Of a stretch of 64,000 nucleotides of DNA, positions 1 to 35,313 are shown one piece after another (the first letter of the stretch is position 1; every line of letters begins with the position of its first letter). The position numbers and the translations under genes were made by a program. Below the pieces are notes generated by a model, which made no database searches, was not told the origin of the DNA, and saw only the letters and a program-made list of their open reading frames with translations. Origin of the DNA: Branchiostoma floridae (Eukaryota; Chordata; Leptocardii; Amphioxiformes; Branchiostomatidae); NCBI RefSeq assembly GCF_000003815.2, contig NC_049979.1, forward strand, positions 10,365,374 through 10,429,373, given 5' to 3'.

Positions 1-2281
1 AAAGTCAGTGGTATATTTGATCATAGTGAATTTATGTTCTGTCGACAAAATATTGGGAGTATTACAACAATAGAAAATTATACTTACTGGGTAAAAAGGA
101 GTCCTGACAATAACATTCACAGACAGACTGTGGCTTGAAATAAAAATTGTTTGGAACTTCACACAAAACTACAGCATGACTGAAACTGAAGAGTCCACAA
201 ACTGTCATGTGCCATGCATCCAAATACAGACAGATAAGATGTTAACTGCTTTTGCAAACAAATTCAGATGCTAAAACTATATGGTACATTGTGCAAAGCA
301 TTATCACCATATAAGGCAGGTACTGTATTTACAACAAATAGAGCATATCTTCTTTGAAACAAATGTATTAGGTATAAACATGAAAAAAGAATTGCTGAAA
401 AACTATGTTACAGTATTACTGTGTTGACATGACTTTGTTTAACTGTGGCTTAGTTGGCTACGCTTGAATTCACATAGAAAGAATATATGGTATCTTCCAA
501 TGTACTTCTGTATGTATCTGATGACTTAATGTCTGCAAGGTACATACTAATATACAGTGAAGCTGTGAAAAGGGAGGCTTCACTATGTAAATGACATCAC
601 ACTAATAAACCATGAAATAAGTGAGACACATGTAGTATTATTCCCCTAAATGCCCACTACAGCATCTTCTCTTACCAGCACAAAACTTTGTAACTTGGTG
701 AAACATACCATTAGATGTACATTGCAAAAGTAGTAACTTCCGTGTCTATAGTATTCATAGTTAACAGTTTCTATAGTATAAAAATGTGAACAATGTGTAT
801 TTTTGTAGAGTTTTAGACTCTAAATTTTGATAATGTAATCTCACATTACTGATAAACTATCTAGATAGACATACACCCAACAAAAATATATGCATTACTC
901 TATTTACAAGGTAAAATATTCACAAAATTTCAACATTTAGTACCAACATATAATATATATATATATTCATATTTTTTTACTTTTAATAATTTTATTGCTC
1001 TGGCTGCAGCATTACATACAGCCAAGGCTGCTGAACTAGATATTAAAGGCATGTGGAGAACAAGCTTATTTTATAGCCCTTGTACAAAAAAATGCTTAAT
1101 ATAAAGTAGTCAGTACTCATGCCTTCAACAGAGTAGATTGAAGGCCTCCCATTGTTATTGCACTTCAGAGAGGTCCAGACTATGACTGCTACCTGGTGAC
1201 AGCTACAGAGTACACATGTATCATTATATTTATGATAACATCAGACAAGGGTTGTCAGTCCAAGATTCCTTCTCTGCCATGGTGGAGTGTCATCGACTGT
1301 CCAATCACCAAACAACTCATCACTTACAAAGTCAGACATGAGTGAATGTTGGGGTGCTATGCTGAAGAGCTGTTGATATACTGGTAAAGGTGTACGTTTG
1401 TGAACGTTGACAAATGCCACGATTGCAGGAAATGCCACTAACCTCCCAATTACTCCATGCAAATGTTTTCTAGTGTGCCAGACCTTACCAGATACATGTA
1501 ACAGTCTATTTTGTAGATTGTCTATTATTGGCTGTTACGACCTGGAACAATATGCAACCTTCAATCCCATGCCTGTCAATGTTAAAGACACAAAAGAAGT
1601 CCTTTTCTTACAGCAAATATGTAGAAGAATTCCCTACATCCTCATGTCCCCAGGTAGGTCAATGAAAAGTCTTTTGTACACACAAAGTTCTGGTCATGTT
1701 CATAAACATGGAAACTGACAAGACCAATCTAACCATGTTACGAACAAATCCTATTCTGATGACATCAAAATTCAGCTTCCTGTCAATGCAAAGCTGTGAA
1801 TTTATATCTTTTTTTCAAGCAATCCATTTTTGTATGTACAGAAATTTATAAAACTATGCAAAATGAATCAGCAAGGTGCATATCTTTATGCTTGCATACA
1901 ATCTGTTCATTTCAACAAAACCTTCTTTCTCTTCTACACATGTTTCACCTAGTGATCAACAAAGGAATTACAACACCACAGTGTACAAATAGATAGTTTG
2001 CTGCAGCACTAGATACCAAAGCAAAATCTACAGCTGATTAAAAATCCATAAATAGTGTAAAATTAGCTTACCGGTAGTTCATTTAAACATACATTGGAAT
2101 GATGGTGATAAAAGATGACATCGTAATGTACAATATGAAGGAGGAAATAAAACGTTTCTGGTTAAAAACATTACACGAATAAAATTCCCCACATTAGCTG
2201 GGTGGGAACAGTTTGAGTCTTTTGCACTCACATGATACACATACATGAAAGTCTGTAGTAAAATGTAGTAAAGGCAATCTA
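1..2281 (-). other. 3' flank and 3'UTR of the ELM2-SANT gene
   Basis: AT-rich DNA downstream of the stop at 2282. I see no credible exon on either strand. A minus-strand AATAAA (plus strand tttatt at 991-996) is a possible polyadenylation signal, which would make a 3'UTR of about 1.3 kb. The short open frames here have no family resemblance. Confidence 0.4.
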
Positions 2282-5200
2282 TTATTCAAATGCATCTTGT
2301 AGATCTTCTTCGAATGTGTTGGTATGGTTGGACATGGGGAGCCCCCTGTCTGGGAGAACTGACACCCTGCTAGCTTCAGGTACATGAATCTTGTCAGACG
2401 TCTTCTCCTCCTCCCTGTCAACCTTGCGGTGAGTCTTCATGTGAGCTGATCTGCTCTTCACTTTGTGAAACACCCTGGTGGAGAGTGGCATAAACCAGAT
2501 GTTAAACAACCAATTTCCATAAGTTTTTTTGTCCATCGGCTTCCATAGCACACATTAAAAAAAAGTACAAGCAGCAAGAAATATGTACTGTAAATTCATT
2601 TATTTTTGGACTTAATTTTTAATAGAAAAGGTAAGGTTTTCACAGTGGTTTAATTCTGGTGTTGAAACAATTTTTAGGACAGTAGTAATATATTAGAAAT
2701 GACATAGTGTCAAGAATTCATGACAGAATTCACCATGAAAAATAAAACCACAGCAAAAATCAAAGACATATAGTAATATTAAGGACTTCATTGCAAAGTT
2801 GAAGAATAGAATACTGGTTGGTATGTAAATAGCATTCATTATCTACTAAATTGTTCAACCTGGTACTTACTTGCCACATATTCTGCAGGGGAACTCCTCC
2901 CCCTCCACAGCAGTAGCTCCAGTCATACTGGACTCACCACTCTCATGGGAGGTGGCGGAGGCATTGGATGGAGGAGGAGATAAACTATTGCTTCGTCTCC
3001 TCTTTCTCTTCTTCTTGCCGTTGTCAGGTTTGCTGTTTCTCTTTGCTGTTTGATTGCTATTGCCAGTGCCACCATGGACTCTTGTGTGGCCATTAAGCCC
3101 TTGTCTTGTAGGGAAAGTCTGGAACAAAGACAGCAGCATTATTGATTAAGGTAAAAATGTGAAATCCTACCAAAGAACTTATACAGACCATACTACCAGT
3201 GCCTTAATACAGGGTATCATCTTTTCTTAAGATTCTTTAAGTACATTGCAAAGTTTTAGAAAATGAAATATTGATACCTTTACTTTACACCAAGGAGAAG
3301 CATAATGGAAAGTTTAGTGTTATACAATCCATTTAATTTAAGAGTAGAAGAGGAAGAAACAAAGGCTGCACATTGTGCTTATGCTTCTTTCTGACAAAGA
3401 CATTCCACGTCATGTACATCTGTTCCACAAATACAAAGAAAAGTATTATTGACTTTGCACTCACTTTAAATAAGTTTAGACTGCTGTATCTGATAAATTC
3501 TGCATAAAAGCAAAGCCCTGAAACCTACCGCATTACATCCTTCGATTGTACAGCAGAAGACATGACTGGGTTCAGGTGTGGGTGACGAAGGTTTGACAAA
3601 GCTGCTCTCAGGACTAACAAATTGTGGCAAGATGGTTCTAGGGGTCTCCACTTCCGAGTCAAAGGATATTGATCGCTAAGGGGGGAGAACAAAGTATCCT
3701 CAAAACCTCATCTAAATGTACTTACACCGCCTATTGAGTGTCCTAAAAACCATCCACAAAAGTCAGCACGTATTTCAAAATACAAGTACTAGAAAACCGT
3801 GCTTCACTGTAAAATGATCCATTCCAGTCATTCATCAATCTGATAAAAGACTCTTTGATGTGTTGAGAAAATATAATCAAAGGTTTGGCTAGTAATGATA
3901 TAATATAAGTTGGGTTAGAAATAATATAATACAATACAAGCCCTAATTGAAAATCGTTTATCTACTCCCAATGTACAGCAAAACTTTTCCATCTTATCTA
4001 CTTTTATGACGTTCTCACCTGATAGACGCAGGCTTTAACAGAATATATTGAAGTAGTTTCCATCAAAAGCTTGGGACAAACCAAAGAATTTTTGAGACAG
4101 GCCAAGGAAAAGACTTACCCCCCATTGTGCCTCCTCTGCACGCCGCGCCTGCAGCCGGGTCCGTCCCAGGATGACTTTGTCCTTCTTCCCCGTGGTGTGC
4201 TTCCAGCGATAGTAGAACTCCACACACTGATCAACAGTCTTGTTTGGGAGCTGCAGGAAAATACATGATGTACATAGTCACCTTTCAGTCAACACAGATA
4301 CCCGGTATGCAGAAGAGAAGAAAATTGATACATGTGCAGCTTTCTTTGAGCAGTTCTAGTACACCTACTTGTACAAAACTAGCTGGATGTAAAGTATTTC
4401 AAAATAAACCATCATATAATATACGAATATTTGAATTAACATATGTAGGCAAATTATACCACTGCAACATTGCAATCTGCACTACCGGTAGTCCAACAGA
4501 CTTGCTAACACACCATGTGGTAGGTAAGTGATAAACCTTTCAAGGAAACTCACAAATTCCTTGAAGTCACTGAAGCTCTTCCCATACTGCTTGATGGCCT
4601 CCTCAAAGTTGGCCTTGTCCTTCTTGTTCCATCGTGTCGAGCCTGATATGTGAATAATTCTAAGTTACAGAGACTGCATATATATGCATGGAAGGATGGC
4701 TGCATTAATTAACCGGATGGTAGCTACAACTGATACACAAATTACATGAAAGTCCTTGACTTTAAATAATTCTGAATTTCACATACCATGCTTCATTTCA
4801 TTGAATGGACTTTAACTGTACAATTGTGTGGGTTGTTGAAGGATGGTATCCAGAAATGGCACTCTGTGATATCAAAGTCCATATGGCTTTGCCTGACTGA
4901 TTGTCTTGTAACCGACAAGTCTGCCCTTCTGTATGGCCAGAATGTCTGACTTCAATACAATTCTATTACAGAAATGCAGCAATATGTTACCTGAATAATG
5001 ATATGTCTGCATGAAAGAATCCTTAGGAAGCAAGGCTGGTTTTGTCATCAGTTTAGGCACTGCCGTCTGGAAGGGAAAAAGTCAAAATTACTCAGGTATG
5101 CACAGATCAAAGTATCATAGAGACAAGACTTTGAGGAATTTCAAACATAAAGCAGTCCGTGTTTTGTATGACTGTGGCAAATGTTTTAATAGTCAACTTA

Positions 5201-8200
5201 GCGATGTCGTCATGTGATGATTGGATACAACTGGTTCCTGAGAACTCACCATGATGTCACCATTACACCTGTACAACAGGTGGAAGGCATACTCCTTGTT
5301 GCGTCCTCCCAGAGGGGCGATTTTAGAACAAGCTGCTTCCAAGTATGCTCGCACTATTAGGAAGGAGGACCAACACATGGCAACTTTATTGGACCTTTAG
5401 CAACAAGTTGAAGATGACAAGCACTTATTTCTCACTATTTCTAAGTTGTTCAAAAACCATACAGGTCAGAATGTATAGTGGCATTAAAAGTTGTTAATGC
5501 AGCCATGCTAAGAAAACTTACACAGTATTTACTGAACAGAGCAAGAAGACATAAACCACACAACACTGCTCTCATCTTAAACATGAAATGTGATATTGTT
5601 TCAAAATTCAGAAATTAAGACATGAAAAGACATTCTGTTGACACCAACCTTCCTTATCAGTCAATTTCTCCACACACTCTGGGTGGAACACCAGCTCAGC
5701 TTTCTCTTCTTCCTTAAGAGCATCTGCTTTGTTTCCTGAGTAACAACAGCACAATGCAAGTTAGATACAACAGCTGAAGTGTACATTGGTGCCAAAATAT
5801 TTGACATTTCAGAAACTGATGCCCAATCTTATGAAATTCTGTGTATGATGTAAACTATAATGCACTATGGGTTTTAATTCAACATCGGCAGACAATAACT
5901 GATTTCATTGAGACTAAGAAGTTTGGTCATAATCAACAGTTAAAAACAGAAGGTCTTGAAGCTCTTGTATATCAAAAGCAACTTACTGCTGTTGAGATAC
6001 CAAACATACATTATGACCAAACCACTGAATAGTCGGAAGCAGCCTTTACTTACTATTGCATTCTGGGATCTGCCTGGAATCTGCCTGGAAGTTGGGTCCA
6101 ACGTTGACCTTTGGCCTGACACCTGCTTCCTGCCAGCTCCCTACAATATGACATTCATCTTAAGTTTGTTTGTTCTATTATAGATGAGTATGTTCTCATA
6201 TATAAAAAAGGGGCACAAAATGACATGATGAGATTAGGTGCTACTTACATTGTCTGCTGAAGAGTAGATTTGGACTGGGGCTCAGGAAGGGGGTGGACGG
6301 TTGTCTGGGTGCAGGAGTCAGCAGCTTCTCATTCTCATTCTTGCAGAATGTGCTGAAGTACAGGCCTGATCCTACCCGGATGGGACTCAACATTGGCGGG
6401 GGGGTGTATGGGGGCTCAGCCCCCTGTGCCTGGGTGAAGATGAAGTCCCCGTTCAGGGCACGGGGGGACCTCATGTGTGACTGGTAAACAATGGGTCCCA
6501 CCGCCACGTGGGCGTTCACACTGTCGGGAATGTTTAACGCCGGAGGTTTCCGTTTGCGCGGCACTGACGGTGCAGTGGACTCAGCAGCCTGAGAGCTCAT
6601 AGTGTCAGGTTCAGGCTTCGTCTTCTTGGGTAGAACGGGGGACACAGAAATGACAGGCGTTCTCCATACCTCTCCTGTGGAAGATGCCTGGCTTCTCACA
6701 GGTTGTGCAGAATATACAATCGTGCTAGCTTTGCTGGAGTAGTTGGTAGGAATTGTGAGTCCTGCAGAAGTGTAGGGTAGGGAGAAACTAACTGAGTTTG
6801 AGCCGTGGGACTGTTGCTGTAGTGCTGAGGACCCAATTGTGGTAGACTGTGTGGGATAGCTGCCTTGGTTAGAAAAGTCTTGAGCTAGCAGTGAGGCAAC
6901 AACATTTGCTATTTCCTTAGTAGAATCTGTAGAGGACGTGACGGGAGACAGTTGTGGCTGCTGTCTCTGACTCAGCATAGTTGCCTCGTAGTTTGAAAAG
7001 TCCATTCTTTCTAACTCCGGTGGCCCTTCACTGTCTGACTGGCTACTTTCTCCTCTGTGTGTTGCCGTTCCCAGCTGGTGTTGCCGTTTCAGAGCAGAGT
7101 AGCTGCCAGGTAGATGAGTAGTAGTCTCAGGCAAACGGATCTCAGTTTTAACTGGTGGTGCACTTTCTTTTGACGGATACAGAAAGTCTGATAAGACAGC
7201 TCCTGACTCATTCCCCCCAGCTCCGCGATGAAGCAATGCTGGATTGGTTGTTGATGAATGACCAGTTGCCATAGATGATGCTGTAGCAGTCCCCATCACC
7301 AGAGACTGCAGCACAGGGTGGGCAGACTCGCCCAGCTGGTCTGGTGTTGCCTGCTCCTCCTGCCCAATAGATGCTACAGTCTGGGTCAGGGCAGCCAGAC
7401 TTTCTGACGACGGATCTTTCTTCTAGAATTTGAAAGAAGGAATCTAAGTGTGCTGTAATAACAGGTAGTTATTTGGACTACTCTCACCTAGGCAAATTCT
7501 GAAAACGCACAACTCCAATGGATGATATGTCTGACTCACATGCAAAGATTCTGTATCAAAGCCATTTATATCTAAAATTGAACCATGTGCATTATTGTTG
7601 TTGTATTATCAAAACACAAAATGTGTTCTGAATCACTAGGGATACAAAATCAAGAACTAGAACTTTAATCTCTTCTGTTTCTGATTACCTTATTCTTCTC
7701 ATAACCGCCATGAAGTCTCATATGGCCATTGAGGGCTGGAAGGCTGCGAAACTGGCGACCACATGTCTGACACTCCACTGGCTTCTGGGGTGCAGCAGCG
7801 GTCTGGGCTGGTACAGTCTTACTTCCGGGGACAGGGGCTTGCTGTAAAGTTGTAGGAAACCTATCAACTTCTGTAGACGCTGGGCTCAGAATTATCATAC
7901 TTTCATGACTTAAATCATCATTCATACTTCACAGACAGGTATTCCACATCACAAATTTTCTCTCCACAATCACTGATAAGCTGCAAACAATCTGCGGAAC
8001 AGTATTGTTTTAATATGCTCAACAATCATTCGGATTGTCATACAGCACCAGATACAGCAATCATGAGGCTACACAATGTACCTGTGATCAAGAATAACAT
8101 TTGGTAAATCACTGTGATTGGAAACTGATGGTCAGTAGTAGAATGAGTTTTTCACATACCCTCGACCACTGACTATGGTTACTTGTCAGCAGGGCTTGAA

Positions 8201-11200
8201 GTTCGTATGGGAAAGACTGCAAGAAAAATGTAATCAAATCACAAACCAGGATTGGGCTGTCTTATGAAGATACGACAACCTTCCCTATTAACCTTTGGCC
8301 TACATCTCACCAAAGAAATGCGTTACACCAAAACAAGACAAGGTTTCAGCACTGGTGGTTAGGAGAGTTGGATTAACCTGAGTGTTGTCCTAACAATTTA
8401 TCTTACCTGTTGCCAGGGGCCTCCTGGTGTTGTGCCGAATCCTGGTGGTGCCGGGACCTCTCTCCTGACGTCTCCAGCCTGTGCTTGTGCCTGGGCAAGT
8501 CTCTGGGCCACCTGTGCATTGTTTGCTGCCTGATTGTACTGCAGTTGGGATGTAGCCTGCACAGCTTGTGCTCGGTTGACCAAAGCCTCATGTGTCACCT
8601 GTGGCTGACTCACGGCCTGAGATACCCGTACCTGGTTGGTAACGTGACCCAACGGAGCCTGGGAGGTGACATGTGGCTGGTTTTCTACTTTGATCATCTG
8701 TACCTGGTTTGCTGCTTGAGCCAACTGCACCTGTGATGTTGCCTGAGCCATCTGTGCTTGACTCACAGCTTGAGCCATCTGCCTCTGGTTTGCTGCTTGA
8801 GCCATCTGCACCTGTGTCTGGTCCGTGGCTTGTGACATCTGTGCTTGCATTCCTGATTGAGCCGCATGGGCCTGGTTTGCAGCCTGGATCATCTGCACCT
8901 GGTTTGCACCCTGAACCATCTGAGCCTGGCTCACACTTTGAGCTGCATGGTTCGCTGCCTGTGCAACGTGTGCCTGTGTAATCTGCACCTGGCTAGTAGG
9001 GGGCATATATGCAGGTGGCGGCTGAGAGAAAACTTGCTGCGGGAGGACCATTTGTGTAGAGCCAACAGCGCCACCGTTGGCTGCTGCTACCAGCTGGGAA
9101 GCAAAGAAACTGTCCAGGTTGACGGTGTATCGAGGCTGAGTACCGCTTGTGGGTTGGTCTGGCAGAGCCCAGGCATTGTACGAAGCTCCAGGCTGCTGGG
9201 GACGCTCCTGGTACGAAGGAGGCTGCGGCTGTGGCTGCTGCTGCTGTGCTCTCCTCGCAAACTGGGCGAGAGACTGCATTGCCTCTCCATGAGATCTCTG
9301 CTGAACTTGGCTGCTTGTCACTACAGCCTCTTCGGGAGGCCTGGGTGCTGATATCTCTGTGGTGGGGGCCGCCACCTCTCCTGCCTGGGTGTAGGACAGC
9401 TGAGGGTCCCGGCTGGTGGATGGGGGAGGCATAGCAGTGGGAGGCACTCCCCTGGTCATGGCAGTCATGGCCTGCTGGGGGGATGGAGGGGAGGGTAGGT
9501 AGAAGGGCCCCAGCTCACTGTGGTGGAGCTCGAAGTGACGACGGAGGGAGCGGGTGTCACAGTAGCTCTTGTCACAGCCTGGAACCATGCACGGAAATGG
9601 CTTCCTCTCGCGATGGGTGTTGATGTGTCCATTTCTGTATTGAGAGAAATAACACTGGTTTAACACAACTTTCTTAAAATCCTTTACAACAGCCCTTCAG
9701 ATGATGGCAGGAATCATTAAAAAATTCTAAACATGTTCAACTCTTTAACTTCTCTTTCATCGTATTAAATGCAGCTTTGTTTGTCTCATCTCCAAAGTTT
9801 ACTGGAACAGATAAAGCAACTAAATGATATTCAACATGCATGCAGGCAGACAGGCCCATATTACAAATTACAATGCTCCTTACACCCTTTCAATACAATC
9901 AGACATAATTTGTATTCTGAGAATACTCTATATAGCTTTGGGCTGTTTTTATACACTCTACATGACATGTATGCAGGGCACATACAAGCCTCGTACACGT
10001 AGCACATTCATCACCACAAAATGGAGACATGAATCAACCAAACAACTGACAACACAGACTTGTACAGCCTAAAAGTATTGCCTGGCTAAGAAAAGTCAAA
10101 TGTCTTCCTCTGCCCTAGAAAGGTACATTTTACTCCTGGCAGTATTACAAACAATGGACTTATGGAAAATACTCAACGTATGTTGGAATACAAAAACATA
10201 TACCTGATAGTACAGTGGATGCATCTGTCTCCAAAAGCAATGTTGTATATACAGCTGATTTGTATGCTATTAATTGACAGACTATCTCAAAAGTCTCATA
10301 AGGTTGGGAAAGTAACTTTGCAAAATTCTTATAACATACAAGAGCTGTACTGTGATGTCTACTAGGGATGGGGTACCGGTACGGTGTACTGGTACAAACC
10401 CGTTTTTTCTTATTGTAGCGGTCCGAAAAAAAAGGACCCGAAAAAAAAAACGGTGAACCGGATGTTGGACCTATTAGAAAATAAACAGATTATATGATCA
10501 TGAATTCACTCATTTGGGGCTTACCGGTCTAAGAAAATAAAAAGATTAGAGTTTATAGTCATTTCTACAAAGTTTTCCAGTCAACCGTACAGAGGTAATT
10601 AGTCTTGCAGGATTTTTAGAACAGCAAAGACTTCACAAAACATACTCTTTGTAGCGAAATTGACCATTGTTTTGAGTATCGTCCATTCACGTGCTTTCAC
10701 ATACTGAGTCAGGTCAAGGTTCAGGTCCGGACCTGGACCTGATCCTCTGGACCTGAACCGGACCTGGACCTGAATTCTCTGTACCGGTACCCACCGCTAA
10801 TGTCTACTATGATGTAAGATCATGTGCAAAGTCTATGCTGTCATTTGACATTTGTAAATAATTAGAATTAAGCCAAGAAGAAAACCCAATTGTCAATCTA
10901 TTCCCAAGATGCTGCCACATTCCTCAGCCAGAAAAATCATCTTACAAGAGTTGATTGATACTTACAAGTGGTCTTGTCTCTTGAAGGCCTTGCCGCAGAT
11001 CTGGCAGACATACTTGCGTTCCTCGCTATGTGTGGACCTGTGCTTGGCGAGGGAACTAGAAGAGCTGAATGTTTTCCCGCACTGTGGACAGTCCACGGGA
11101 TGACGGGAGGGCGAACCACGGGCTGGCCGACCTGCCCGCTTCTGGAGATACAGACAAACAACATTCAACTTCTAGTTCAATACTAACACAGTGACTACGT

Positions 11201-17563: not shown

Positions 17564-20500
17564 ATGGAGGAATTGAGCAATCGTAAACAGATGGATCCTG
17601 CAGAAGGTAGTGTATATTTACCATATTTTGGGGACAGGAGCAATTTTTAGGTACACAATGACGTGTGATAGCAGTTCATTAAGTGTCCAGACTTGTAAAG
17701 CAAGAAAGGTGTAGGTCTGGGCCTTGTGTACAGTCCCGTGACTCATTTGTTTGGAGAGCCTCCGGATGTAACGTTAACGGTTTTCTACAGCACATACAGT
17801 CGTCCATCCACTCATTTTGTCACGTTATGTCCACAACTACCTCCCGTAAATATCGTTGTTGTAACGGCTTGTTTAGGAAGAACGTGTGTAGTGCTACCAA
17901 GGGGAATGACACAACACCCTGGCCAACCACAGGAAAGAACATGTCTGACTGATGGAACGATAAAAGATGGCGCAACATGTCCACGACATGGCATGCATGC
18001 ATCATGGTAGTGCCATACTGCTTGTGTACATAATTTTTTTCATCTGACACTTCCGCCCACGTCGTGTATCTCTGTTGTTGTTATTTGCGAAATACTGTGA
18101 AAATTTGTAACGTTGGCCCAACGCGTCAAAGTCCTACCCCACACTTTAATACAAGGACAGACAAGACTGACATGATGGCACTGTTGGCAGAGTATCAGAT
18201 TGCTAACAACAGACACTACCCTTGTAGCTCATGGAAGGATTTAATACTAAAACATGATCCAGTTCAAATATAAATCGCACTGGATTGGATTCTAGATCAT
18301 AAATGATGTGCAACTTTTACAACCTTTAGATAATCAATGTTTAATAGGATAATCATGTTGCAATCCTGTGACAAATGCTTCATTATGAAATCAATGTAGG
18401 CTTAGTGGTCTCAACATTACAGTGACAGAGATCGCAGGACCTTGTCAGGAAATATTAGCCTTGCATGTAGACCATACTGGACTGTATATACACTTGCTGC
18501 ATATGCACACTTGCACAGGAAAACCTTAAATATCTGACGGTATGGTGTATCAGTTTTTCGGACATGCAAAATATTGTTCTTGTTGCTGAATCACAGAAAT
18601 TGGCATGATCTACCTTAACTTTAAAATTTTATAGTTACAGTTTTAACCTCATCTGAAACATTAAATTCAATAAAGACCAACTGGAACTAAACATTTTCAT
18701 GTCAATTGATACGATAAGTTTCTTTTAAAATTATTTTTGCAATCCAGGCAAGCCAAAATCAAACGCAGCAAGTGGCTTATAGTACCTGACCAGAGCATGT
18801 AGGAGGGCATACGTGTACATGTACCTTAGAAAGCTACAGTTGCTTTTTACCCAACAAAGATCAAAGTCTAAAGTCTTTTGTGGAATCTTTCATTCTGCGA
18901 GTCTGTTGGTTGGTAACCTTTGACCTTTAATACAGGTGGCATGATGTGTTGTATTGGATGTTCAGATCATGGATTTTTGTCCTAATTTGTGTGAAAGTGA
19001 ATTTACTGCAAATAAGCATGTTCCTAGGTTTTAAACAGAATATGAGGTTTCACACTTCTGAAACCAAAGCAATTACTAGTATGTGATACTGATAGCATCT
19101 CACTCTCTTGTATCAATGCTAATATGACTGCTTAAATAGTACTAGTACATGTTAATGGCAAGCAATTTCCCTCTATGGATATTGTAGCCATACTTCAACG
19201 TCAAAGGGCTGTTATACCTGCTATATGGATACTGATTGCATCTAATACCAACTTATATTTGCATTTTGATTGCTCAAATTTATCCAAAGTAATAGTTAGA
19301 ACATAGCTCGAGGCCTTCTATTGGGGAAAAGGGTCGCTCCTCCACAAGGGGCGAAGCCTAGGCAGTTATCACAGTGTTGGCTGATGAGTGTTGCAAAAAA
19401 AGTGTTGTACTGTGATAAAAGTGTGGCCCTATGTTATTCAAATGATTTCATAGTACCACACTTTTTTCATAGTGCCACACTTCTTCAAGTTACTGACTAA
19501 GGGGGTATAAAACAGAAATTAAACAAAGGGCTCTGATTGGCTGAGGGGTAGTGGCCATGTTCTAACTACTTACTGCACAGTGTTCATGATGTGTGCATGT
19601 TCATGTTTTTGGTGAATCCAGTGACTATCAGCTAGAGATCTCCTGGACACCATCCATTGAGCCAACATTCAATAACAGGACTTACATATACATCAGAACT
19701 GTTTGATTCTGCTATCTACTCTGTAGGTAAGAAGTGTACCGAGTGCATGCTGTGGGCATGGTGGCATAGTGGTGCTATTTTCCATGCTTGAAAGAGGCCA
19801 TAAGTTTTAAAAAAGTTAAGTTTTCTTGCAATAGGAACAGTGCTTCTGAAGAACCCTATGTGGTCTAACACGCTTGCAACAGCATGCTCACACTTACCTG
19901 ACAGAAATCTCAGCAGTTGACTTGCAGTGTTTTTATTTGTTGCGTAAAATATGTATTAATGCCTGTGCATTTGCAAGTTTGTATTTGTCAAAACTGCCCA
20001 TGAAGACCATGTCACTCGGGACAATTAAAATGGGCACTTTAGACAGAATTGTGCATGGGAAAATTTATCTTAAGGTACGACCAAAAAGTAATACACGTTA
20101 CTACTAGTATTCATAAGTCATATACCTTATGTTCTGTTTTCTCTATTTTCCCTATTGCAGAAAACATGTCTGCAGGAGACACCATAGGGCTGAATGGGAG
20201 ACCCATCCCTGTTGTTCTGGTCAACTCAGACGACCATACCTTTGAGCTTGACGAAGATGCTCTTAGGTCAGTCCTCCTCAAGGAGCACATCCAGGACAAG
20301 AAGGTTGTTGTTGTTTCTGTCGCTGGTGCCTTCCGTAAGGGCAAGTCTTTTCTCCTCAACTTCTTCCTGCGATACCTGAAAAGCAAGGTAAGAGATACCA
20401 TCAGAGTGTTGAGCACTATATACCAGTTGTTGTGAGTTGAATATTGGTATTGACACAGATTGATAATGTTGTGGCCATGAAACGCCATCTATTCAACAAA

Positions 20501-23500
20501 ATACTCGTTTTTCTTAAAAGAAGAACTTAGACATGTTATGTGTGGCAGAAAGAGTTTATTCATGAATCTACATTATATGTTAAAGATTTAACGTACATGC
20601 ATTTGCTCTGGAACAGTGTAAGCGTAAAACACAGCACATAAGCCTACTTTTTTTTACAATGTCCACCATTTTAAATAGGTGAATACTGTATATGCTATTT
20701 TTTAAATGTTACTGAAGTGTTACCTAACAGTGATATACATGTACTAGAAATATATGTGTGTTCTGTCACTTCTGTGTGTACCTTTACCAATTACCGTGCA
20801 TTTAATAATTAGGTTTTTGCCTCTGTGCAGTGTGAAAAGAGCAAAGGTGTATTGTATAACAAATGTCTGCTATTTCATGAATTTTATGATAGGAGTTTAA
20901 AGCCAATAAAGGTATACTGTTGAGTCTGCACAGTGTAACATTACAGATTAAATGGTACTTTGCCCCTAGCATAGCTATAGAAAAAGTATTCCCCATTGGT
21001 ATTATAAAAACCAAATGAAACAATACAAATAAAGAAGAAAATATTCCTTAAAGTCGTTCCAAATTCATCTTTAACCTCCTTTTTGTCAGTTTCCACATAC
21101 ATTATATGTGCTTGTAGAAAATATCTCATGGACTGAAGGGAAACTATGAAATGAACCTTGACATAATGATGAAAAAGATCAATAACAAAATGAATGCATG
21201 AGTCACTGTTAACTGTTTCTGTCCGCATGCATTCCAGTGTTGGTGCTCATCAGGGAGTACTGTGGTACAGTATTAAATCTTTTTCCTTCCAGTAGAAATA
21301 GCATTTTGGCAGGAGGATTTGGATGGCTATACATTATTCATCCCACACATCTGCAATGCCTGTGGCAGGGCTTAGTTATGATATCTAGATGCAACATCTT
21401 ACAGCAATCATGACCTCGTCCCGCGGTTCCTTTTAGTGAGCGATGTTCGGTGGCAGCAAGCACTTATCTATATATACATCTTTTTCTGCAATTTCCTTTT
21501 AGTCGTTTAATTGGGACATGTTTGGTGTCATCAGTCTGATGTGGAAGCTTTCTGCTTTGTGCCCAGAGTCAGAGTAATGTTGTCTGGGAAATGGCTACTC
21601 CCCTTCCAGTCATTCCCTTTGAATGAGGAAATAAGATCTACATCTGTGAAATGTACCATCCGTGTTCAGACTACCATGTAAATTGAGTTAGAAGGATGAA
21701 AAAGGCTGTGTTGGAAGTAATGTAATACATTTGTTGCGTAATGTAATATTGTCCACATGTATTCAGGCAATCTAGGCACTAGATAATGTGAAAGGAGAAT
21801 TGATGGGCTTTTGGACAGAATGTGATGTTGGATTTTGGGAGAGTAAGACATTTTGGTGTTACAGATTTCAGTCTCAAATTGTTGCAATGGAACCCAAATA
21901 AACTTTAAGTGCCATTGAATTACCGGCATACATTAAGAAATAGTCAATCAAGGTAATCAATCAATAACATAAAAAACATATCAAGAATGAGATAAACTGA
22001 ACATTTTTAGTCAGATTTCCCTGCTATAGTATCAGTAAGACATATAACAATCCTTAAAAAAATGCTCTAAACACTGAGCGGGATCTGACATCTGCTTAGA
22101 GATTAGAGGTTAGGCAAATGACTTAGCGGTGGCTATGGTGCCATAACACATCATTGGAGTCTCTGACAGAAGAAAGAGAGCAGTTTGAACCTTGCATCGT
22201 ATACTATTAGTAGACTGTAGGCAGTGCTTCCATTCATTCATCCACCAACTTCTAGTTATAACTCCTTTTTCTAGTTTTCCAGCACCCTGTTTACTTTCCC
22301 TTTACACTGGGTCTAACTCCTGCTTCAATGTTTTATGTATATTCTACACATTCACTCTTATCATCCAGAAAACTTCTAGCTCAATCAGACAATCTTGTAA
22401 ATATCCTTCTTTGCTCTTACTGAAGGGAAAGGATGAGTGGCTGGGACAGGAAGACCAGCAGCTGGAGGGATTCTCCTGGAGAGGGGGGTCAGAACGACAC
22501 ACCACAGGTATCCTCATCTGGAGCGACCCTTTCATAGTCACGCTGCCCAATGGAGAAGAGGTCAGTACTACATTCATGTAGACCTGATTGATTACAAATC
22601 AAGGAATACCATCCCTGTTGGCCAACCGATATGGTTTGTTACCTTCGCCGAGAAGGTTATATTTTGGGTAGCGTTTGTGTGTGTGTGTGTGTGTAGAAGA
22701 CCAGCATAACTCAAGAACCCCTGGATGGATTGTATTGATATTTGGTATGTGGGTAGGTCTTGATAATACCTAAAAATGATTAGATTTTGGGGCCCCTAGT
22801 GGCTTGTAATGGTACTGCAGTTTAACTTCCGGGTTTGATATCTCGAGTTCTGGATATGCTGTGGTCATGATTTTTGAGTGGTAGATAGCTCTTGGGGTAG
22901 AAAGTAAGTAGTGTAGTTTTGGGCCCCCTAGCGGCTTGTTTTGGAACTGCAGGGGCCGGACAGTGTCAGATTTTGAAAGGGAATAACTCAAGAAGGGATT
23001 AACGGATCGTCACAATTTTTGGTATGTAGATAGCTCAAGTGATGCTTTATATAGTTAACTATTTATTATGCAAATTGACATCTAATTTGCATAATTAATG
23101 AGGAAATCGTCTAACCCGCTCCATTCCATTATAGGACTATTGCAACATTGGTAACATTGGTAAATGAGTAAGAGAAGAAGATATTGATAGATGAGCATTA
23201 TGCAAATTAATACCCAATTAGCATAATTAATGAGAAAATGCTATAATCCTATTGTGGTAAATGACAGGAATTTCTTACTTGGGGCATTTGGGAGTTATGA
23301 ACAGGTGAACATCATTGATCTCTATTATGCAAATGAGGACATCATTTGCATAAAAATGAGGACCTCATTTGCATTAAGTATCAGAAAATGCGGTTAAACC
23401 ATTCTTTCTTAACATATTGTGTAACTGGATTGAAGAGATGATTAACGAATATTATTTATACAAATTAGGATCTTATTTGCATAATTAACGAGAACCACAA

Positions 23501-26500
23501 TTCAAACACTAGTTGTAAAGGTTAAAGTCATTTGGCGAAGGTATGGGGTCGTGGAACTCTAGTTGGTTTATCAATTTATAAGCAGGGAAGTTGAAAAAAG
23601 TCTGTTGTAATTTTGACAGACGGTATTTGAATTAGAATGTAATTCTTCTATCATATGATTTATAAGAATTGTAAATATGACTTTGTGCTACCAAACCCTT
23701 TTGTCATCGGCAAAGATTGTGTCACAAAGCTATACTCAAGCTTAATTTATAGCTTGTTACAATGTGACAGATAAAATAGTGCAACAGTCCTTCTGATTTC
23801 CTCCACACAGGTAGCAATAGTGCTGTTGGACACCCAGGGAGCCTTTGACAGCCAGTCAACAGTGAAGGACTGTGCCACGGTGTTTGCCCTCAGCACCATG
23901 ACCAGCTCTGTACAGGTCTACAACCTCACACAGAACATACAGGAGGACGACCTGCAGCACCTGCAAGTAGGTTAGATTTGAACAGGTTCATGCTTCAACT
24001 TTAGCTGGATATCACCTTTTCTGTGCGAGATCAGAACTGATCTGCAGGACTGTCTTGATTCTGCAAACAATCGTACCAAAAACAAAAGTTTGTGAATGGT
24101 TATATAGGGTTGATAAGTAAATGGATTCTTTACTCAACCAAAACAGAAAGACTATGGGAACGTTGGCAATTATACTCTTTTGATTGAGTAACAAAGGACT
24201 GTATTATCCAGTCTTACAAAGTATAGTAAGGTTGACTTCATAAGTTTGCCTAATATAGTATGCTGTCAGGCACTGGTGATCAAAGGTTATCTTTTTACTA
24301 CACAGTCACTGATCTAAAAATGACAACATCGTGATGTTTCATGGCTAGAGTTATTCTTCAATTTTTTTTTTTCTTTACTCCACAGTTGTTTACTGAGTAT
24401 GGAAGGTTAGCCCTGGAAGATACCAACTCGACTCCATTTCAGGTACTTCATTAGCATTAGTGACTTGAAGGTGATGTTAGGAATTACAGCAATTGTTGAG
24501 TATCTTGGAGTTTGTAAATTGTTTCATCATTTCAATGGAAAATATTTATTTCATTTAAGTACCAGTGCACATAAAGATGTTTTGTTGGTGTCACGTAAGA
24601 AACTTTACTTACTGTTGTTGAAAAAATAAGGTCACAAAATGAGTCACAAAAATTGGACAAATGAAGACAATAGATCTTGACGAAATGAAAGAGTGAAATG
24701 AGCTACAAAGGTTAACAAACCATGATTTATGATTGTTATGATCAAGTTAACTAAATGCAATAGTAAACATTTTTCTTCACCACAGGTCTTGGAGTTCTTG
24801 GTGCGAGACTGGAGCTATCCATATGAAGCAGAATATGGGTCTGAAGGAGGAAGGAACATTCTGGAAAGAAGACTTGAGGTGCTTATTATACTTTTATACT
24901 TTTTTATTTTCTCATCACTAGTGTATGTATCTTGAAGTGTCCATGTTTTGATAATTTTGCCGTTGCCATCACCAAGAACATCTTTACTATATGAGCCGTC
25001 TTTTCATGTATGGTGGAAGAAAATATTTTTTGTTCTTTCCCTGTAAAGATTGCAGACAAGCAGCACGAGGAACTCCAAAATGTGAGGAGACACATCAAGA
25101 AGTGTTTTGAGAAGACGGGCTGTTTCCTGATGCCTCACCCCGGCATGAAGGTCGCCACCAACCCTGTGTTTGATGGCAGACTCCAAGGTGATATTTTCTC
25201 CAAGTGTGGGCTTTCTTACACTATGATATATTGTAGTACAACCATGTATTTACATGACATAGGGATTCAGCACGATTGAATGTTTTTGACTGTTTTTTAA
25301 ATCACTTTTCAGATTGTGGTAATGCCAGTCGTTATAAATGGCTTTAGAAAGCAGTGAAAAAGTAGAAATTATCTTTTTGACTTTGTGAACCCTTGTTTTA
25401 TTTTTGTGGTAGGTAGCATGTAGGAATTTATTTTATTGATATCTAGTACAAAGATGGAGAGACAATGTTGTTAAGTTCCTGAATGCCACTTGGCCAAGTG
25501 GTTCAAGGAGTGCAAACTGGGGAAAGGTTTCTCCCTCTGAGATGATGATGATGGTCTAATCCGTACATTTTAATGTGGTAGGAGGTGTAGTTGCAGAGAT
25601 GACTTTTTGCCTTCTGTTTTGCTAGACATTGAGAGTGACTTCAAGGAACAGCTGAAGGTTCTGGTGCCCCAGCTCCTGGAGCCGACTCACCTGGTGGTCA
25701 AGAAGATCAATGGTGCAGATGTCACAGCCAGGGAATTAGTGGAATACTTCAAGGTAAATAATCCTAACTAATAGCAGGCATAAGCCCGTGTGTATCTTCG
25801 ACATTTTATGTGTTGGGTAGTAAAAGAAATGAGGGCTTCTTGATAGTATGCCATGTTTTACTTAAGGCCTAAGATATCCTCTTGTCTTTCCCGTGACACA
25901 GTTTTCTCCACATCTGAATGTTCTGCTCTGAAAGAAGCAAGAGTATCGGGTGTTTAGAAAAAGACAACAGTTTGGTGTCATATCAAGATAATAAGTGTAT
26001 TTGTTTCTCCTCAACTTCCTTGTCTACCTTGTAACAGGCCTACGTGAATGTATTCAAAAGCGACGAGCTCCCAGAACCAAAGTCCATGCTGCAGGCAACA
26101 GCAGAAGCAAACAACCTGGCTGCAGTGGCCACAGCTAAGGCCCTATATCAAGCAGAGATGGAGAAGGTAGGTCATGACAACAGTCTTTGTAACTTAAACT
26201 CTCACTGTCCAAGGACACTGTGCAGCCCCTGACTAGTGGAGGGCTACTAGAAACATTGTTTAGTCAAGCTAAGCTTGACACAGTTACATATGTAGTTTTA
26301 GTGGTTCCACAGTAATCTCTATTGTAGTTAGCCAAATACTAGTAGAGACTCCTTTTCACATGTCCCATCTATGCATGCATATTCAACAGTTACAAACTGT
26401 AAGTATTGTTGATGCCAAAATAGTTACAGCTATTGGTTGTTTACGGATGCCACCTGGGTGAAATAACTAGAACTGCAGGTATTGTTACTTAGCATGCAAG

Positions 26501-27914
26501 TCTTCGTCATGTATGCACTTTTTCTATGATTATTACAGCATACATCATTGCTATATGGTTGGTAAATCATAGGAGAGCTGGACCTGCTGTTTCAGGAACA
26601 TCCTGGATACCCAGATACCATTTTGCCACCTTATCATAGCTTTGTACAATAGTGGAACTGTCTGTTAGTTGACATTATGGATCAATACATGTATGTGCTA
26701 CATATATCATTTAGAACAGCCCTATCAAACTACATGTATTTTTTTCAACAGATCTGTGGAGGAAATCAGCCATACCTGAATCCCGATGAGCTTGAGGCTC
26801 ACCACCAGCGTTTCAAAGAGAACTGTCTAGAAATCTTTCACGAAAAGAAGAAGATGGGAGGAGAAGAGTACAGTTCTTGCTTTGCTGAGCAGCTGGACAA
26901 GGAAGTAGAGGAAGCCTTCGAGCACTTCTCTGAGCAGAATGATAGCAAGAACATCTTCCGTGCTGCACAGACGCCGGCCACGTTGTTTGCAGTCATGGTG
27001 GTCACATACGTACTATCAGGTATTAGAACTACATTCCTTTCCACGTATCAAAGTACTTGCATCTACTTATGTACGTGTTTCAATGACCTGTGTATTAGAT
27101 GTTGTATTGAAAGGTCCAACCAAACAGCTCTTATCAACAATCTGTTTTGGACTGAAACTTAGCAAAGTGAAAAGTAAAAAAGCTGTATTGCAATGATTTA
27201 GTGTGCTTAAGCTGATTTGTTTGCATTATTTTCATCATCAAAATGTCCCCTCCCATTCTGCCTTGCTGTAGGTTTCTTTGCATTGCTTGGAATGTACACC
27301 GTAGCCAACATCCTGACAGCGGTATTGTGGGCATCCCTAGTCAGCCTGTGCACATGGTCGTACATCAGATACAGCGGACAGTACCGTGAGGTTGGCACAT
27401 ACATCGATCTGGGAGCAGAAGTCATCTGGGAGAAAGTATGTGAACCTTAATGATTAGTTAATCTTATACTCTATGTCCTTTTTTTCTTTCTTTACTACTG
27501 TAACTCTTGAAAGGTTCATGGTGGTGTTATTTTCACTTTTTTCACTATAACCCCTTATCCTGAAATCATTCTACTGCGAGTATGTGGTTTGGAATTCTGC
27601 TGTACTGCAGAATTGTTTCAACCATGAACTTCAAACTCTGCTAAAACCTCATTTTCCCTCCTTCTACAAAACAAAACTACAGCCAAAGGAACTGTATTTA
27701 CAGTACCCTCATGTAGTGTCTACAAATCATTATCAAATGGCCTGGCTATGCTATATTGTGCTTTAACTTGGATACAACTAAAATATCCTACTATGTAGCT
27801 ATATTCTAATGTTTGATTTCTGAACCCACACAGGTTGTGAGCCAGGCTTACATGAAGGTGGTGCAGAAGGGTGTGGAACATAGTATGGCCAATAACAGAA
27901 AGAAGAAAAACTGA
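17564..27914 (+). CDS. ATL: Atlastin, ER membrane-fusion GTPase
   Basis: Exons: 17564-17606, 20161-20387, 22426-22560, 23811-23966, 24386-24442, 24786-24878, 25049-25187, 25626-25753, 26038-26166, 26752-27019, 27272-27435, 27834-27914 (stop TGA). All are GT-AG and in phase, giving 539 residues (human atlastins are about 540-580). Atlastin tethers and fuses ER tubules by GTP-driven dimerisation. Visible motifs: P-loop GAFRKGKS at about 70-77, DTQG at 142-145, the guanine-binding RD at 213-214, the three-helix middle domain ([20 protein letters not shown]), two membrane segments around 444-490 ([18 protein letters not shown], then [19 protein letters not shown]) and a short cytosolic tail with a C-terminal KKKN, a KKXX-type ER signal. 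The first exon is chosen because CAAGATGGAGGA gives a start that splices in phase into the next exon. Confidence 0.96.
17607..20160 (+). other. Atlastin intron 1
   Basis: A 2.55-kb intron with no recognised exon. It holds a foldback at about 19395-19486: blocks resembling AAAGTGTGGTACTATGA occur twice on one arm and, reverse-complemented, twice on the other, with an AT-rich loop. Otherwise the sequence is AT-rich. Confidence 0.6.
19395..19486. repeat. Foldback hairpin of about 20-bp units
   Basis: The left arm contains aaaagtgtggccctatg and the right arm contains catagtaccacactttttt and catagtgccacactt. The arms pair over roughly 38 bp with several mismatches. It is a likely MITE remnant or a strong DNA hairpin. 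There is no coding content. Confidence 0.5.
20388..22425 (+). other. Atlastin intron 2
   Basis: A 2.0-kb AT-rich intron between the P-loop exon and the GFSWRGG exon. I find no exon, RNA gene or clear repeat in it. Confidence 0.5.
22641..23542. mobile_element. Repeat element with internal octamer-rich tandem units in atlastin intron 3
   Basis: Begins ACCTTCGCC and ends GGCGAAGGT, a 9-bp inverted terminus. After a GT run the interior holds about four units of roughly 130 bp, at about 23065, 23198, 23325 and 23455. Each pairs a TATGCAAAT-like block with a facing ATTTGCATAATTAA block. I count seven perfect ATGCAAAT/ATTTGCAT octamers between 23065 and 23485. There is no ORF. Confidence 0.6.
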
Positions 27915-31311: not shown

Positions 31312-34300
31312 ATGGTAAGTAGTGCTCTGTCCATATTAGAGGCTTTTTCTCAGCTTTTGGAATTGATAAAACAGCTTCCTTTCGGTTTTGTTTGGCGACT
31401 GTGACAAGTTTTCGTTATGCGATTGGACGACTAGACAATGCAGTTGATCAAACTTTGAAAACGGAGTTCTTCGAAATGTAATGAGCTCTTAAGAGTTGTG
31501 GCATGCAGTAAGTTACAGACGCCTTATAGCTATGAACATCGATTAGCGTTTTTAAATAACTTTCGATTTCATATCATTGTATTGCAAAGGAGAGCAATGT
31601 TTACAAATGATGGAAAGTAGACTTAATGGGCCTTGCACTTATACAAGACTTGACTTATCGTCATATGTTACGAATATAAGTGACAATTGAGAAAAAGGGC
31701 AAGCGCAATACTTTTCCTTCGTCTCCCAACTATGATACACACCAGCAGTCAAACAGGGGTATTTCGTTTTTCCAGTCAGGCTGAAATAGTTTAAATACCG
31801 ACATGGTGTAGTACAGGATAGTATATGTACGCGCATACCTTAGGATACTTGAAACTGCATTTACGTATTGAAAGTGATACCCCGTTGATACCCGATTCGC
31901 ACTATTTCATAATTCCCCAAGCACATCGTAATATACGCAATGATTCAAATGTGGCTATATAAAAAAAGGAACACGGAAAAATTCTGTGCTTTATACAGTC
32001 GTACGTGAGGTTAGGACGGTACTATTTTGGGGCAGGGGATCGATTACAAAAAACACAGACAATGCAATTCTACTTTTCGCTTAATGCTTTGCCATTTCCG
32101 ACTGAGCCATTACACTGCTCAAAGTCTGATTCTGAAACGAAGAAAAAGCAACGTATAATAGATGCATTGCTACACAAAGTATACGATACAGCCAGCCTTT
32201 CTTGGCACAGAACACGATTACGTTTAATACTGGCTCCATCTTGGATGAAAGTTTCATTTTGGCGGGAACACATTCCAGGAATACTCGCGAGGGGACAGCA
32301 AATTCTGCGCCCGGCTAGTGTGGCTACTGTTGAACTGTTTACAGATGACCTAAGACAAAACTATTAATGTCATGTTTTTTGATACGCAAAGCAAGATGAT
32401 GACAGTTAATGGTTCTATGAGTAGCGATGGTTGCGTGTTCTGGTAATATCAAAATATTAAATATTAAACAGTAAAAAAAATGGAATGTGGAAACTTTGAA
32501 GACTTCAAATTTAGATTTCAGGGGAAAAAGGAAAAATATTGTACGTGCGATCGACAGAAATAGGACTTAACGTTTTTGTATATGTTTAGCTTACGCGTTG
32601 TGTACGTTGTGTCACCTTGTTGTGTTGAAACCCTGTGCGCTAGGCGTCCAGAAAGGCCAAGAAGAAGGCAGGATCCCTACGCGCTAAGCGCGTCACTTCC
32701 AACGTCTTCGCGATGTTCGACACCGCGCAGATTCAAGAATTCAAAGAGGTAATTATCCACTTCGATGAGAGTGAGAGTAACCCGAGTCCTGTTGTATTGC
32801 TCTCTCCTAACAGGCAAGCAGAAAGGCCAAGAAGAAGGCTGGGTCCATGCGCGCCAAGCGCGTGACATCCAACGTCTTCGCCATGTTCACCTCCGAGCAG
32901 ATCCAGGAGTTCAAAGAGGCAAGCCATGTAGCATGGCCGACTTAGCAAAACCCACTCTTGTACAAACTGGGCGGGTTTTGCTACTTCGGTCTGCTTCCTA
33001 AGTTAGAAGACCAGAGACGTTTGTGATCCTACTGTCATGGGCTATGGTTTGGATCACAGACGCCCTGGCCAACCAACGAACCCACGAGAATTGCCTGTAG
33101 TAGCTTGTACTCCGCATTCTAACCCATACTGCTCTTTCACAAATCTATCATCACCATTTTCATTTCAGAAGGTCCAACAGAGTGCCCACGGATCCATAAC
33201 TTCATTCTATGCTTAACATCTTCCTTTTTTTTCACCCGCCGACAACTGACAATACCATAGAACTGCCCTGTGTTGTGCTATGACCCTTTATGCAACTGAA
33301 ACGTACGAATGACTAGTGGTGGAATCGGGCTTACTGTAACACCGCTAACGTACAAGATACGACAAGTGATGTCGGTTTTCGAAAAAAAAAGACAACCGAA
33401 TTATTAACTGTTCAAACAACTTCTATTCATATCTGTGCTGTATAATTCTGAAACCCTGCCAAAAGGTCAACCTTCAACAGAACTACAGGCCATTAAAACA
33501 CTATGAAAAATGAATTGTGAGGAAGAGTGACTAACGACAAACTTACATTTCCTGTTCCATGACAAACAAGTCAACTGACATTTTAGAATGCACGACCGAC
33601 CCACAGCACGTACATGTATTTCCATAGACCACCATGGCATCAACTCGGCCTGTACCTGAAAATGGGACTCTCTCGTCGTCGTCGTATATGGACCAATACA
33701 CAAAGATTACACCACCCACCATCCACGACACATGTTTAATTTAAACATCCCAGATCCTCTACTAACCGGGACATCAGCTGATAACTCTAGATCTCTAACC
33801 TAACCGTTACGTTAAGATTACATACCTGATCACTAAAGCGTCGCCCCTCTGTCCCTGTCCCACAGGCTTTCACGTGGATCGACCAGAACCACGACGGCTT
33901 CCTGCAGCCTGACGATCTGAAGGGTGTCTTCTCAGAGCTGAGTAAGTCGGGTCTCCTCAAAACCTGTGTTAAACTGTGTATAGTTGCTATGAGGTCTGAT
34001 GATACATGCATCTATAGTCGTACCAGATGATATGTCATTGTCGAAGCATCGCGGGGATTTAATTTCGCGGTGGCGGGAAAATGAAGTGTTCGCGGTTCAG
34101 CGCCATGTACTGTACTGTAGTCACATACTGCAATATAAAATGTTCGCGGTGGTTTTGAGTTCGCGGTGAAACAGCCATCGCAAAAAAAACGCGAACATAA
34201 AATCACCGCGAACATTTCTGCATCTACAGCACAAATGGCAGGTTTAAGATAGTTAACCATCCATTGCTGCCTTTCTCCAGACAAGGATCCCGGCAGTGAT

Positions 34301-35313
34301 GGCATCGACAAGATGATGGCCGACGCACCTGGTCCCATCAACTTCACCTGCTTCTTGACAATCATGGGCAGGAAACTCAAGGGTAAGTTGTGCACCTGAT
34401 GTTGTAAAGGTAAGAGCGACAGAACGCCAACAGATTATGAACGTAAGATCGTGACGTTGTGTTGTGTTGTGGTGGACCGAGGGCCATTATAAACAGAACA
34501 GCGGCATTTTGTCAACATCTCCTAGGCTCACCATACAAACATTTGTCTTTCTTACAGGCGTGGACACAGAAGAGGTCATGTTAGACGCCTTCAAGATCTT
34601 GGATCCCGATGAGACTGGGAAAGTAGCAGTATCGACGTAAGTTGTCCTGAACATTTTCGTGTCCATTCTTTTAGCAATAGATTTCCTGGGCTTGGTTTAC
34701 ATGACAAACGCAATCATCACACGATAGAAGACGTCCCAATCACATTAATGTAAACGCTCTGTAGTGAAGTGTATTTCCAGAGATATTTCACTAGACGTAG
34801 ACCAAACGTTTGGAATCGTCCAACCAAAATAATAATCGATACTTTTTCTCTCTTCCTACAGGATCAAAGAGCTGCTGGTCAGTGGCGGCGAGAAGTTCTC
34901 AGATGACGAGGTACTTTCTATATTATCTCATGGCATCAGCTTTGCAAGCATACAGATAAAGGAGAATTTCCGTAAACCTTTAGATGTGTTCTTTAGATGT
35001 TACTTCAGAGTCAGGATTGTATGCCAGTTTTGATTGCATCTAGTTCCTGATATCCAGATCCCGTGGTTATGATTATATTCTACGACAATTATTATTATTA
35101 TCTCGTTATTATGGTTAACTTCATCCATTACAATATCATTTATTGCCATCATCCCGTTATTATGATTAAATCCCGAGACAACAACACATATGTTAATTCA
35201 TATTTTGACTTCTCTTTCCTCAGCTGAAGGGTGCATTTGAGGGTGCACCAGTCGAGGACGGAAACTTGGACTACATCAAGTACTGCAAGATCGTGAAGCG
35301 CGGCGAGGACTAG
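31312..35313 (+). CDS. MRLC: Myosin regulatory light chain
   Basis: Exons: 31312-31314 (ATG only), then one of two versions of exon 2 (32644-32748 or 32814-32918), then 33866-33941, 34281-34382, 34558-34636, 34862-34910, 35224-35313 (stop TAG). Either choice gives 167 residues, the family size. The protein binds the IQ motif of the myosin heavy chain neck and tunes contraction. The N-terminal KRVTSNVFAMF (Thr19-Ser20) matches the myosin light chain kinase target site. The first EF-hand loop, D42-x-N44-x-D46-G, is canonical; later EF-hands are degenerate, as in regulatory light chains. The donor directly after ATG (ATG followed by GTAAGT) explains why no long first exon is visible. ATTAAA at 35587-35592 is a likely poly(A) signal. 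Muscle expression is suggested by the upstream CArG box. Confidence 0.95.
31315..32643 (+). other. Myosin light chain intron 1
   Basis: A 1.3-kb intron separating the ATG-only exon from the paired second exons. A 120-codon open frame at 32005-32367 lies inside it, but it has no family resemblance and no splice logic, so I treat the region as non-coding. Muscle genes often hold enhancers in this intron; I see no decisive motif. Confidence 0.5.
32644..32748 (+). CDS. MRLC: Myosin light chain exon 2, upstream version (2a)
   Basis: The acceptor ends GCGCTAG and the donor is GAG followed by GTAATT. The exon is 35 codons, phase 0 at both ends, and encodes residues 2-36 with Leu13 and the FDTAQ variant before IQEFKE. 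It lies 65 bp upstream of a same-length version. By my count the two differ at 18 of 105 bases and 4 of 35 residues. Confidence 0.9.
32814..32918 (+). CDS. MRLC: Myosin light chain exon 2, downstream version (2b)
   Basis: The acceptor is preceded by a pyrimidine-rich tract (tctctcctaacag). The exon is 35 codons, phase 0 at both ends, with Met13 and FTSEQ replacing FDTAQ. The donor reads GAG followed by GCAAGC, a GC-AG type donor with otherwise good consensus, while the upstream version has a GT donor. Inclusion of both exons would keep frame but duplicate the phosphorylation segment. Confidence 0.88.
34046..34229. repeat. GCG-rich interspersed repeat in the myosin light chain intron
   Basis: Blocks such as ttcgcggtggcggg, tgttcgcggtggttttgag and aatcaccgcgaacatttctg alternate in direct and inverted order, so the element can fold on itself. 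It is far richer in CpG than its neighbours and ends near ctgcatctacag. It is probably a dispersed non-autonomous element; boundaries are approximate. Confidence 0.5.

Follow-up and report, generated by a model that had tools for sequence, protein, structure and literature searches.

Tandem copies of exon 2 in an amphioxus myosin regulatory light chain gene, a candidate mutually exclusive pair with a 65-nt intron and a GC donor

A single myosin regulatory light chain (RLC) gene of Branchiostoma floridae probably gives rise to two light chains through a choice between two copies of its exon 2, termed 2a and 2b, with a steric block against their joining and with splice sites tuned for the choice. 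The gene lies on the + strand of the window, i.e. the whole 64,000-nt stretch of DNA analysed here (C1:10365374-10429373). At the level of sequence, duplication of exon 2 within the gene, complete reading frames for either choice, and differing splice sites are established; mutually exclusive splicing of 2a and 2b appears likely.

Results

The RLC gene and its surroundings

The initial ATG combined with either 2a or 2b and with exons 3-7 (Table 1) specified a complete protein of 167 residues. MYL9 and MYL12B (PDB 9syu, 9z3w) were the closest solved relatives of both forms. The MYL9 match extended over residues 1-165, with E = 9e-48 for the 2a form and 6.7e-47 for the 2b form. When the 2a form was scanned, three EF-hand Pfam families scored above the cut-off. 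The segment TSNVFAMF was in register with MYL9 in both exon versions, with basic residues upstream of the putative phosphorylatable Thr-Ser. A previous sequence-only reading of this DNA had named the gene as a myosin RLC, and the full-length similarity to MYL9/MYL12B agrees with that. No further RLC exon set was found in the window; the next tblastn match had E = 0.39.

Table 1. Coordinates of RLC gene features in the window
Feature	Position	Strand	Remarks
Exon 1, coding part (ATG alone)	31312..31314	+	donor gtaagt directly after
Exon 2a acceptor	32614..32643	+	poor pyrimidine tract
Exon 2a	32644..32748	+	residues 2-36, ASRKAKKKAGSLRAKRVTSNVFAMFDTAQIQEFKE; donor gtaatt
Intron between 2a and 2b	32749..32813	+	65 nt
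Exon 2b	32814..32918	+	residues 2-36, ASRKAKKKAGSMRAKRVTSNVFAMFTSEQIQEFKE
GC donor of exon 2b	32919..32924	+	GAG/gcaagc
Predicted strong hairpin	32937..32989	+	begins 18 nt past the end of 2b; arms CCGACTTAGCAAAACCC / GGGTTTTGCTACTTCGG
Exon 3	33866..33941	+	EF-hand 1 loop
Exon 4	34281..34382	+	
Exon 5	34558..34636	+	
Exon 6	34862..34910	+	
Exon 7, coding part	35224..35313	+	includes stop codon

Other features of the window were recorded. A GTPase gene, which we take to be atlastin-like, lies upstream on the same strand at 20169-27400; a Pfam GBP domain was detected in two of the three pieces scanned. On the - strand, a long open frame rich in Gln and Ala, with repeats of period 27, occupies 8398-9696; by eye, a C2H2-like finger motif is present close to its start, and the frame matched no Pfam family at E ≤ 0.001. 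Repeats built on TTCGCGGT, both inverted and direct, are present in intron 3 of the RLC gene (34064-34217) and resemble a short mobile-element remnant.

Comparison of exons 2a and 2b

Exons 2a and 2b are adjacent homologous exons of equal length, phase, and frame. They differed at 18 of 105 nt and at 4 of 35 residues (31 identical), and both were in phase 0 at both ends. Coordinates and lengths confirmed the earlier description of two 105-bp exons of the same phase, 65 bp apart. Alignment likewise confirmed the four residue differences that it had listed, which from 2a to 2b (Met = 1) are L13M and, at the Asp-Thr-Ala/Thr-Ser-Glu positions, D27T, T28S, and A29E. When 18 changes were placed at random 20,000 times, the mean number of residue changes was 12.3, and no placement gave four or fewer; the resemblance of 2a and 2b is far beyond chance.

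A repeat finder returned a single 111-nt family, and ungapped comparison of their 60-nt flanks gave a match of 27% upstream and 30% downstream. By both analyses the similarity ends at the exon edges. The homology is confined to the exons and the Nei-Gojobori dS is 0.72; therefore, the duplication is evidently not recent. The proposal of a tandem duplication with matched phase is supported.

Origin of the duplication

The whole genome (513,431,437 bp in 431 contigs) was searched. With the 2a/2b pair, the DNA search matched, apart from the window, one sister exon, on C4. The protein search yielded 52 matches (E ≤ 10); five loci were fetched from these, and they contained six further RLC genes, designated C2a, C2b1, C2b2, C2c, C4a, and C4b. 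The total of seven RLC genes is a lower bound; the remaining matches, located elsewhere on C1 and C2 and on C3, C5, C6, C7, C9, and C12, may represent further RLC-like or other EF-hand genes. Two of the RLC genes seemingly lie in tandem within one locus (L029, on the reverse strand of C2:11085000-11094900), at about 900-4050 and 7400-9505 onward of the reverse complement.

In each of the six sister genes, the exon-2 segment was detected once at E ≤ 0.05 (within a longer exon in the case of C2a), and neither the window nor any of the five fetched RLC loci yielded an extra copy at this threshold. The nucleotide comparison covered the sister exons of C4a and C2c, with one C4a codon dropped for alignment. 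Identity was 87/105 between 2a and 2b, 78 and 76/105 to C4a, and 72 and 74/105 to C2c. Because the sisters are single-copy and 2a and 2b resemble one another more than they resemble the C4a and C2c exons, the duplication most likely arose inside the window gene. A protein tree joined the 2a and 2b forms (100/100), a grouping that is forced by their common exons 3-7.

Residue 27 was Asp or Glu in 2a, all six sisters, and MYL9, and Thr in 2b. When the 18 changes were polarised with C4a and C2c, 5 fell on 2a and 5 on 2b (one on each less surely), and 8 were unpolarised. The changes placed on 2b comprised 2 synonymous ones and 3 within the replacements D27T and A29E.

Predicted block to joining of 2a and 2b

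Splice signals were compared among 16 introns: 7 of the RLC gene and 9 of the upstream atlastin-like gene, the latter placed by eye from conserved peptides. The weights for donors and branch points were human-type frequencies; the resulting scores are relative and serve for rankings only. The 65-nt intron was the shortest of the 16, followed by introns of 170 and 175 nt. Of its six best-scoring branch-point candidates, five are usable, at distances of 11-37 nt from the donor; the top motif (A at 32810) is 3 nt from the intron end and unusable for this acceptor. The best usable candidate, gagtAAc with the predicted branch A at 32780, scored a moderate 3.36; this A is at +32 from the donor, and 33 nt remain to the end of the intron. 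The predicted usable branch points are thus below the ~50-nt steric limit, which derives from human/vertebrate introns and may differ in this species.

These predicted positions support the suggestion in the sequence-only reading that a 65-bp intron may sterically hinder the joining of 2a to 2b. We propose that this intron would be spliced inefficiently, its branch point being too near its own donor (about 32 nt), so that 2a and 2b would not be joined. PMC7969005 describes human OGDH exons 4a and 4b as exclusive via branch points 25-41 nt from the donor, under the ~50-nt limit. In a human survey (PMC5740500), 57 of 629 clusters (9%) had a donor-to-branch distance below 50 nt, and many similar neighbouring exons were not mutually exclusive.

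Inclusion of both exons remained in frame (202 residues), as did skipping of both (132 residues). These outcomes are compatible with use of 2a and 2b jointly or as independent cassettes, which would place a doubled N-terminal segment in some transcripts. We consider such use improbable in view of the 65-nt intron and its branch-point candidates near the donor; moreover, an extra basic tail and helix start before EF-hand 1 would be expected to disrupt the conserved fold. Enforcement of exclusive use by frame loss was ruled out: joint inclusion is in frame, and therefore nonsense-mediated decay cannot impose exclusivity. Competing RNA pairing of the docker-selector kind between the 65-nt intron and its neighbours was also rejected, as shuffled sequences did as well in 47 of 60 cases for intron 1 and, for the intron that follows 2b, in 16 of 60. 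The in-frame result of joint inclusion or joint skipping extends the earlier description of the locus, as does the GC donor of 2b.

Splice sites of 2a and 2b

Fifteen of the 16 donors were GT; the single GC donor was that of exon 2b. Its total score (3.67) was the lowest of the 16, the next being 4.04, and was low largely through the penalty assigned to C at +2. When positions +1/+2 were left out, 2b scored 6.31 vs 3.52 for 2a, indicating a good match apart from the C. The 2a donor, with a total score of 7.51, is not weak. The intron after 2b is predicted to be of GC-AG type, with a good U1 context at the GC donor and a normal AG acceptor (cccacag/GCTTTC). In sister C2c the homologous donor is gtaagc, so one T-to-C change would yield the GC donor of 2b. 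A further candidate donor, a GT lying 9 nt past 2b, is also in frame and scored 0.83.

At positions -20 to -5, the 2a acceptor had 8/16 pyrimidines, the fewest of all; the other fifteen acceptors had 11-16/16, including 12/16 for 2b. The choice between the exons would be tuned by these complementary weaknesses, a poor acceptor on 2a and a GC donor on 2b. GC donors are described as weak and tied to alternative splicing in PMC7242645, which cites Farrer 2002 for a GC donor without which C. elegans let-2 does not undergo its developmentally regulated splicing.

With an acceptor so poor in pyrimidines, 2a might be rarely used and 2b might be the standard exon. This is very improbable: 2a retains the acidic residue 27 of the sisters and has no clearly polarisable replacement; the third-position change polarised to 2a in exon codon 12 may or may not alter the residue. 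Furthermore, weak acceptors are typical of regulated exons.

The hairpin predicted after 2b had z = -3.93, with 1 of 200 shuffles as good, and a 421-nt region had z = -3.28, with 1 of 100 shuffles as good. Local folding almost always paired both G's of the 2b exon-intron junction. Stretches of 100 nt that folded as well as the hairpin numbered 26 of 2556 (both strands of the window, overlaps of the same hairpin included), and 5 of 342 at similar G+C. The hairpin could be regulatory, or it could be a small inverted-repeat insertion; we do not claim it as a regulator, because equally stable folds recur in the window. No Rfam match was found in the window at gathering thresholds.

Predicted consequences for the light chain

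Alignment with MYL9 placed the putative kinase sites at Thr19-Ser20. Through these residues, 2a and 2b are identical except at residue 13. The changes at 27-29 had been described as beside the Thr-Ser kinase target; they are indeed near it, 7-9 residues past Ser20, but outside the kinase motif. Residues 27-29 form the start of helix A of EF-hand 1 in the RLC fold. Asp-Thr-Ala of 2a is like that of other RLCs, whereas Thr-Ser-Glu of 2b shifts toward calmodulin. The score against calmodulin (9ya0) was 81.8 bits with 2a and 86.1 bits with 2b, and in the fragment search calmodulin appeared, at 1e-7, with 2b only. Replacing 2a by 2b lowered the MYL9 score from 165.8 to 162.9 bits and raised that of an invertebrate striated RLC (3jbh, which we take to be the tarantula RLC) from 136.5 to 140.9 bits.

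The two products would be distinguished chiefly by the first EF-hand helix cap, shortly past Thr-Ser, so that the coupling of the phosphorylated N-terminus to the light chain body would differ, rather than phosphorylatability. Judged from the residues exchanged, what is tuned is likely the hinge that joins the phosphorylated tail to the light chain body.

Selection on the two copies

Both exons had been proposed to be under protein-level selection. The pairwise comparison (Nei-Gojobori dN 0.097, dS 0.72, dN/dS 0.13) agrees with this for the pair; for 2b taken singly, the proposal stands less firmly. With 2a conserved, the probability that 2b, drifting neutrally, would show no stop and at most four residue changes was 0.31, 0.085, and 0.0018 for 3, 5, and 10 synonymous hits, respectively, on the 2b branch. 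Few synonymous hits are firmly placed on 2b; therefore, its neutral drift is compatible with the data. Selection on 2b by itself is weakly to moderately supported by these comparisons.

The drift values at 3 and 5 hits, with 2 hits firmly placed, bear on another reading, in which 2b is a decaying copy whose donor has slipped to GC and which is rarely or never spliced in, 2a being constitutive. The lowest donor score of the 16 would fit such decay, as would the polarisable replacements on 2b (D27T and, less surely, A29E), by which the acidic residue 27 was lost. However, 2b is open and in phase, its acceptor is better than that of 2a, its donor pairs well apart from the C, and the pairwise dN/dS is 0.13. 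In addition, its clustered changes produce a helix-cap sequence nearer that of calmodulin. We therefore regard decay of 2b as unlikely and favour alternative use of the two exons.

Paired exons in sister genes

In C4a (L003, C4:14049000-14058500, reverse strand), two 76-nt versions of exon 3 were found between exons 2 and 4, 515 nt apart: 3a at 6741-6816 and 3b at 7332-7407 of the reverse complement, each with AG and gtgagt. They were identical at 9/25 residues and 36/75 nt, with dS saturated; the pairing rests on position and fold more than on close similarity. Inclusion of both would shift the frame, so 3a and 3b look like a second exclusive exon pair.

C2a (L028, C2:2013000-2022900, reverse strand) is a MYL9/12-like gene with two homologous last exons, starting at 5061 and 6546 of the reverse complement. 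Over the part compared they shared 33/50 residues, and each had its own stop codon. Neither AATAAA nor ATTAAA was found after either of them in the fetched stretch. These exons are candidate alternative C-terminal lobes.

Paired exons were thus present in 3 of the 7 RLC genes found, at three positions: exon 2, exon 3, and the last exon. The pairs in two sisters suggest that duplication of exons may be a route taken repeatedly in the RLC family. More tentatively, we propose as a possible general picture that this lineage diversifies its RLCs by tandem exon duplication besides gene duplication. The three paired positions (the N-terminal phosphorylation segment, the EF-hand 1 loop, and the C-terminal lobe) would each tune a different regulatory part, and in the window gene exclusivity would come from a branch point too near the donor, and choice from the GC donor.

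Discussion

Diversity of vertebrate muscle RLCs is usually ascribed to separate genes. If the proposed choice of exon is true, one chordate gene swaps its phosphorylation-hinge segment, a natural experiment on the role of that segment with the rest of the protein constant. With its GC donor and 65-nt intron, the splicing switch is open to direct tests in minigenes.

No account of alternative exons in an amphioxus RLC was found among the papers listed in the literature search, most subscription journals lying outside that search. The terms 'light chain', 'MRLC', and 'splic' are absent from the main text of PMC5888912, on 16 chordate muscle genes. In PMC8805411, on the muscle transcriptome of amphioxus, light chains receive a single passing mention.

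The proposed arrangement resembles several known systems. As described in PMC7969005, vertebrate OGDH has two exclusive exons, 4a and 4b, separated by a short intron, whose branch points in human are at the above-mentioned distance of 25-41 nt from the 5' splice site; its isoforms differ in calcium sensitivity. Those branch points were mapped, whereas those of the RLC gene are predicted, and the latter gene encodes a myosin light chain and adds a GC donor. In C. elegans let-2, a collagen IV gene, a GC 5' splice site is also found at a developmentally regulated alternative splice; however, let-2 is an unrelated gene and, according to PMC7242645, the site was tested experimentally, whereas our case is built from sequence. 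Chordate Fgfr genes, including that of amphioxus, acquired mutually exclusive exons (IIIb/IIIc) by tandem exon duplication. That duplication is reported in PMC5703972 to predate the split of the chordate sub-phyla, whereas the RLC duplication was seen in 1 of 7 RLC genes of one genome. At the protein level, both predicted RLC forms resemble MYL9/MYL12B in full-length match and in the register of the Thr-Ser motif.
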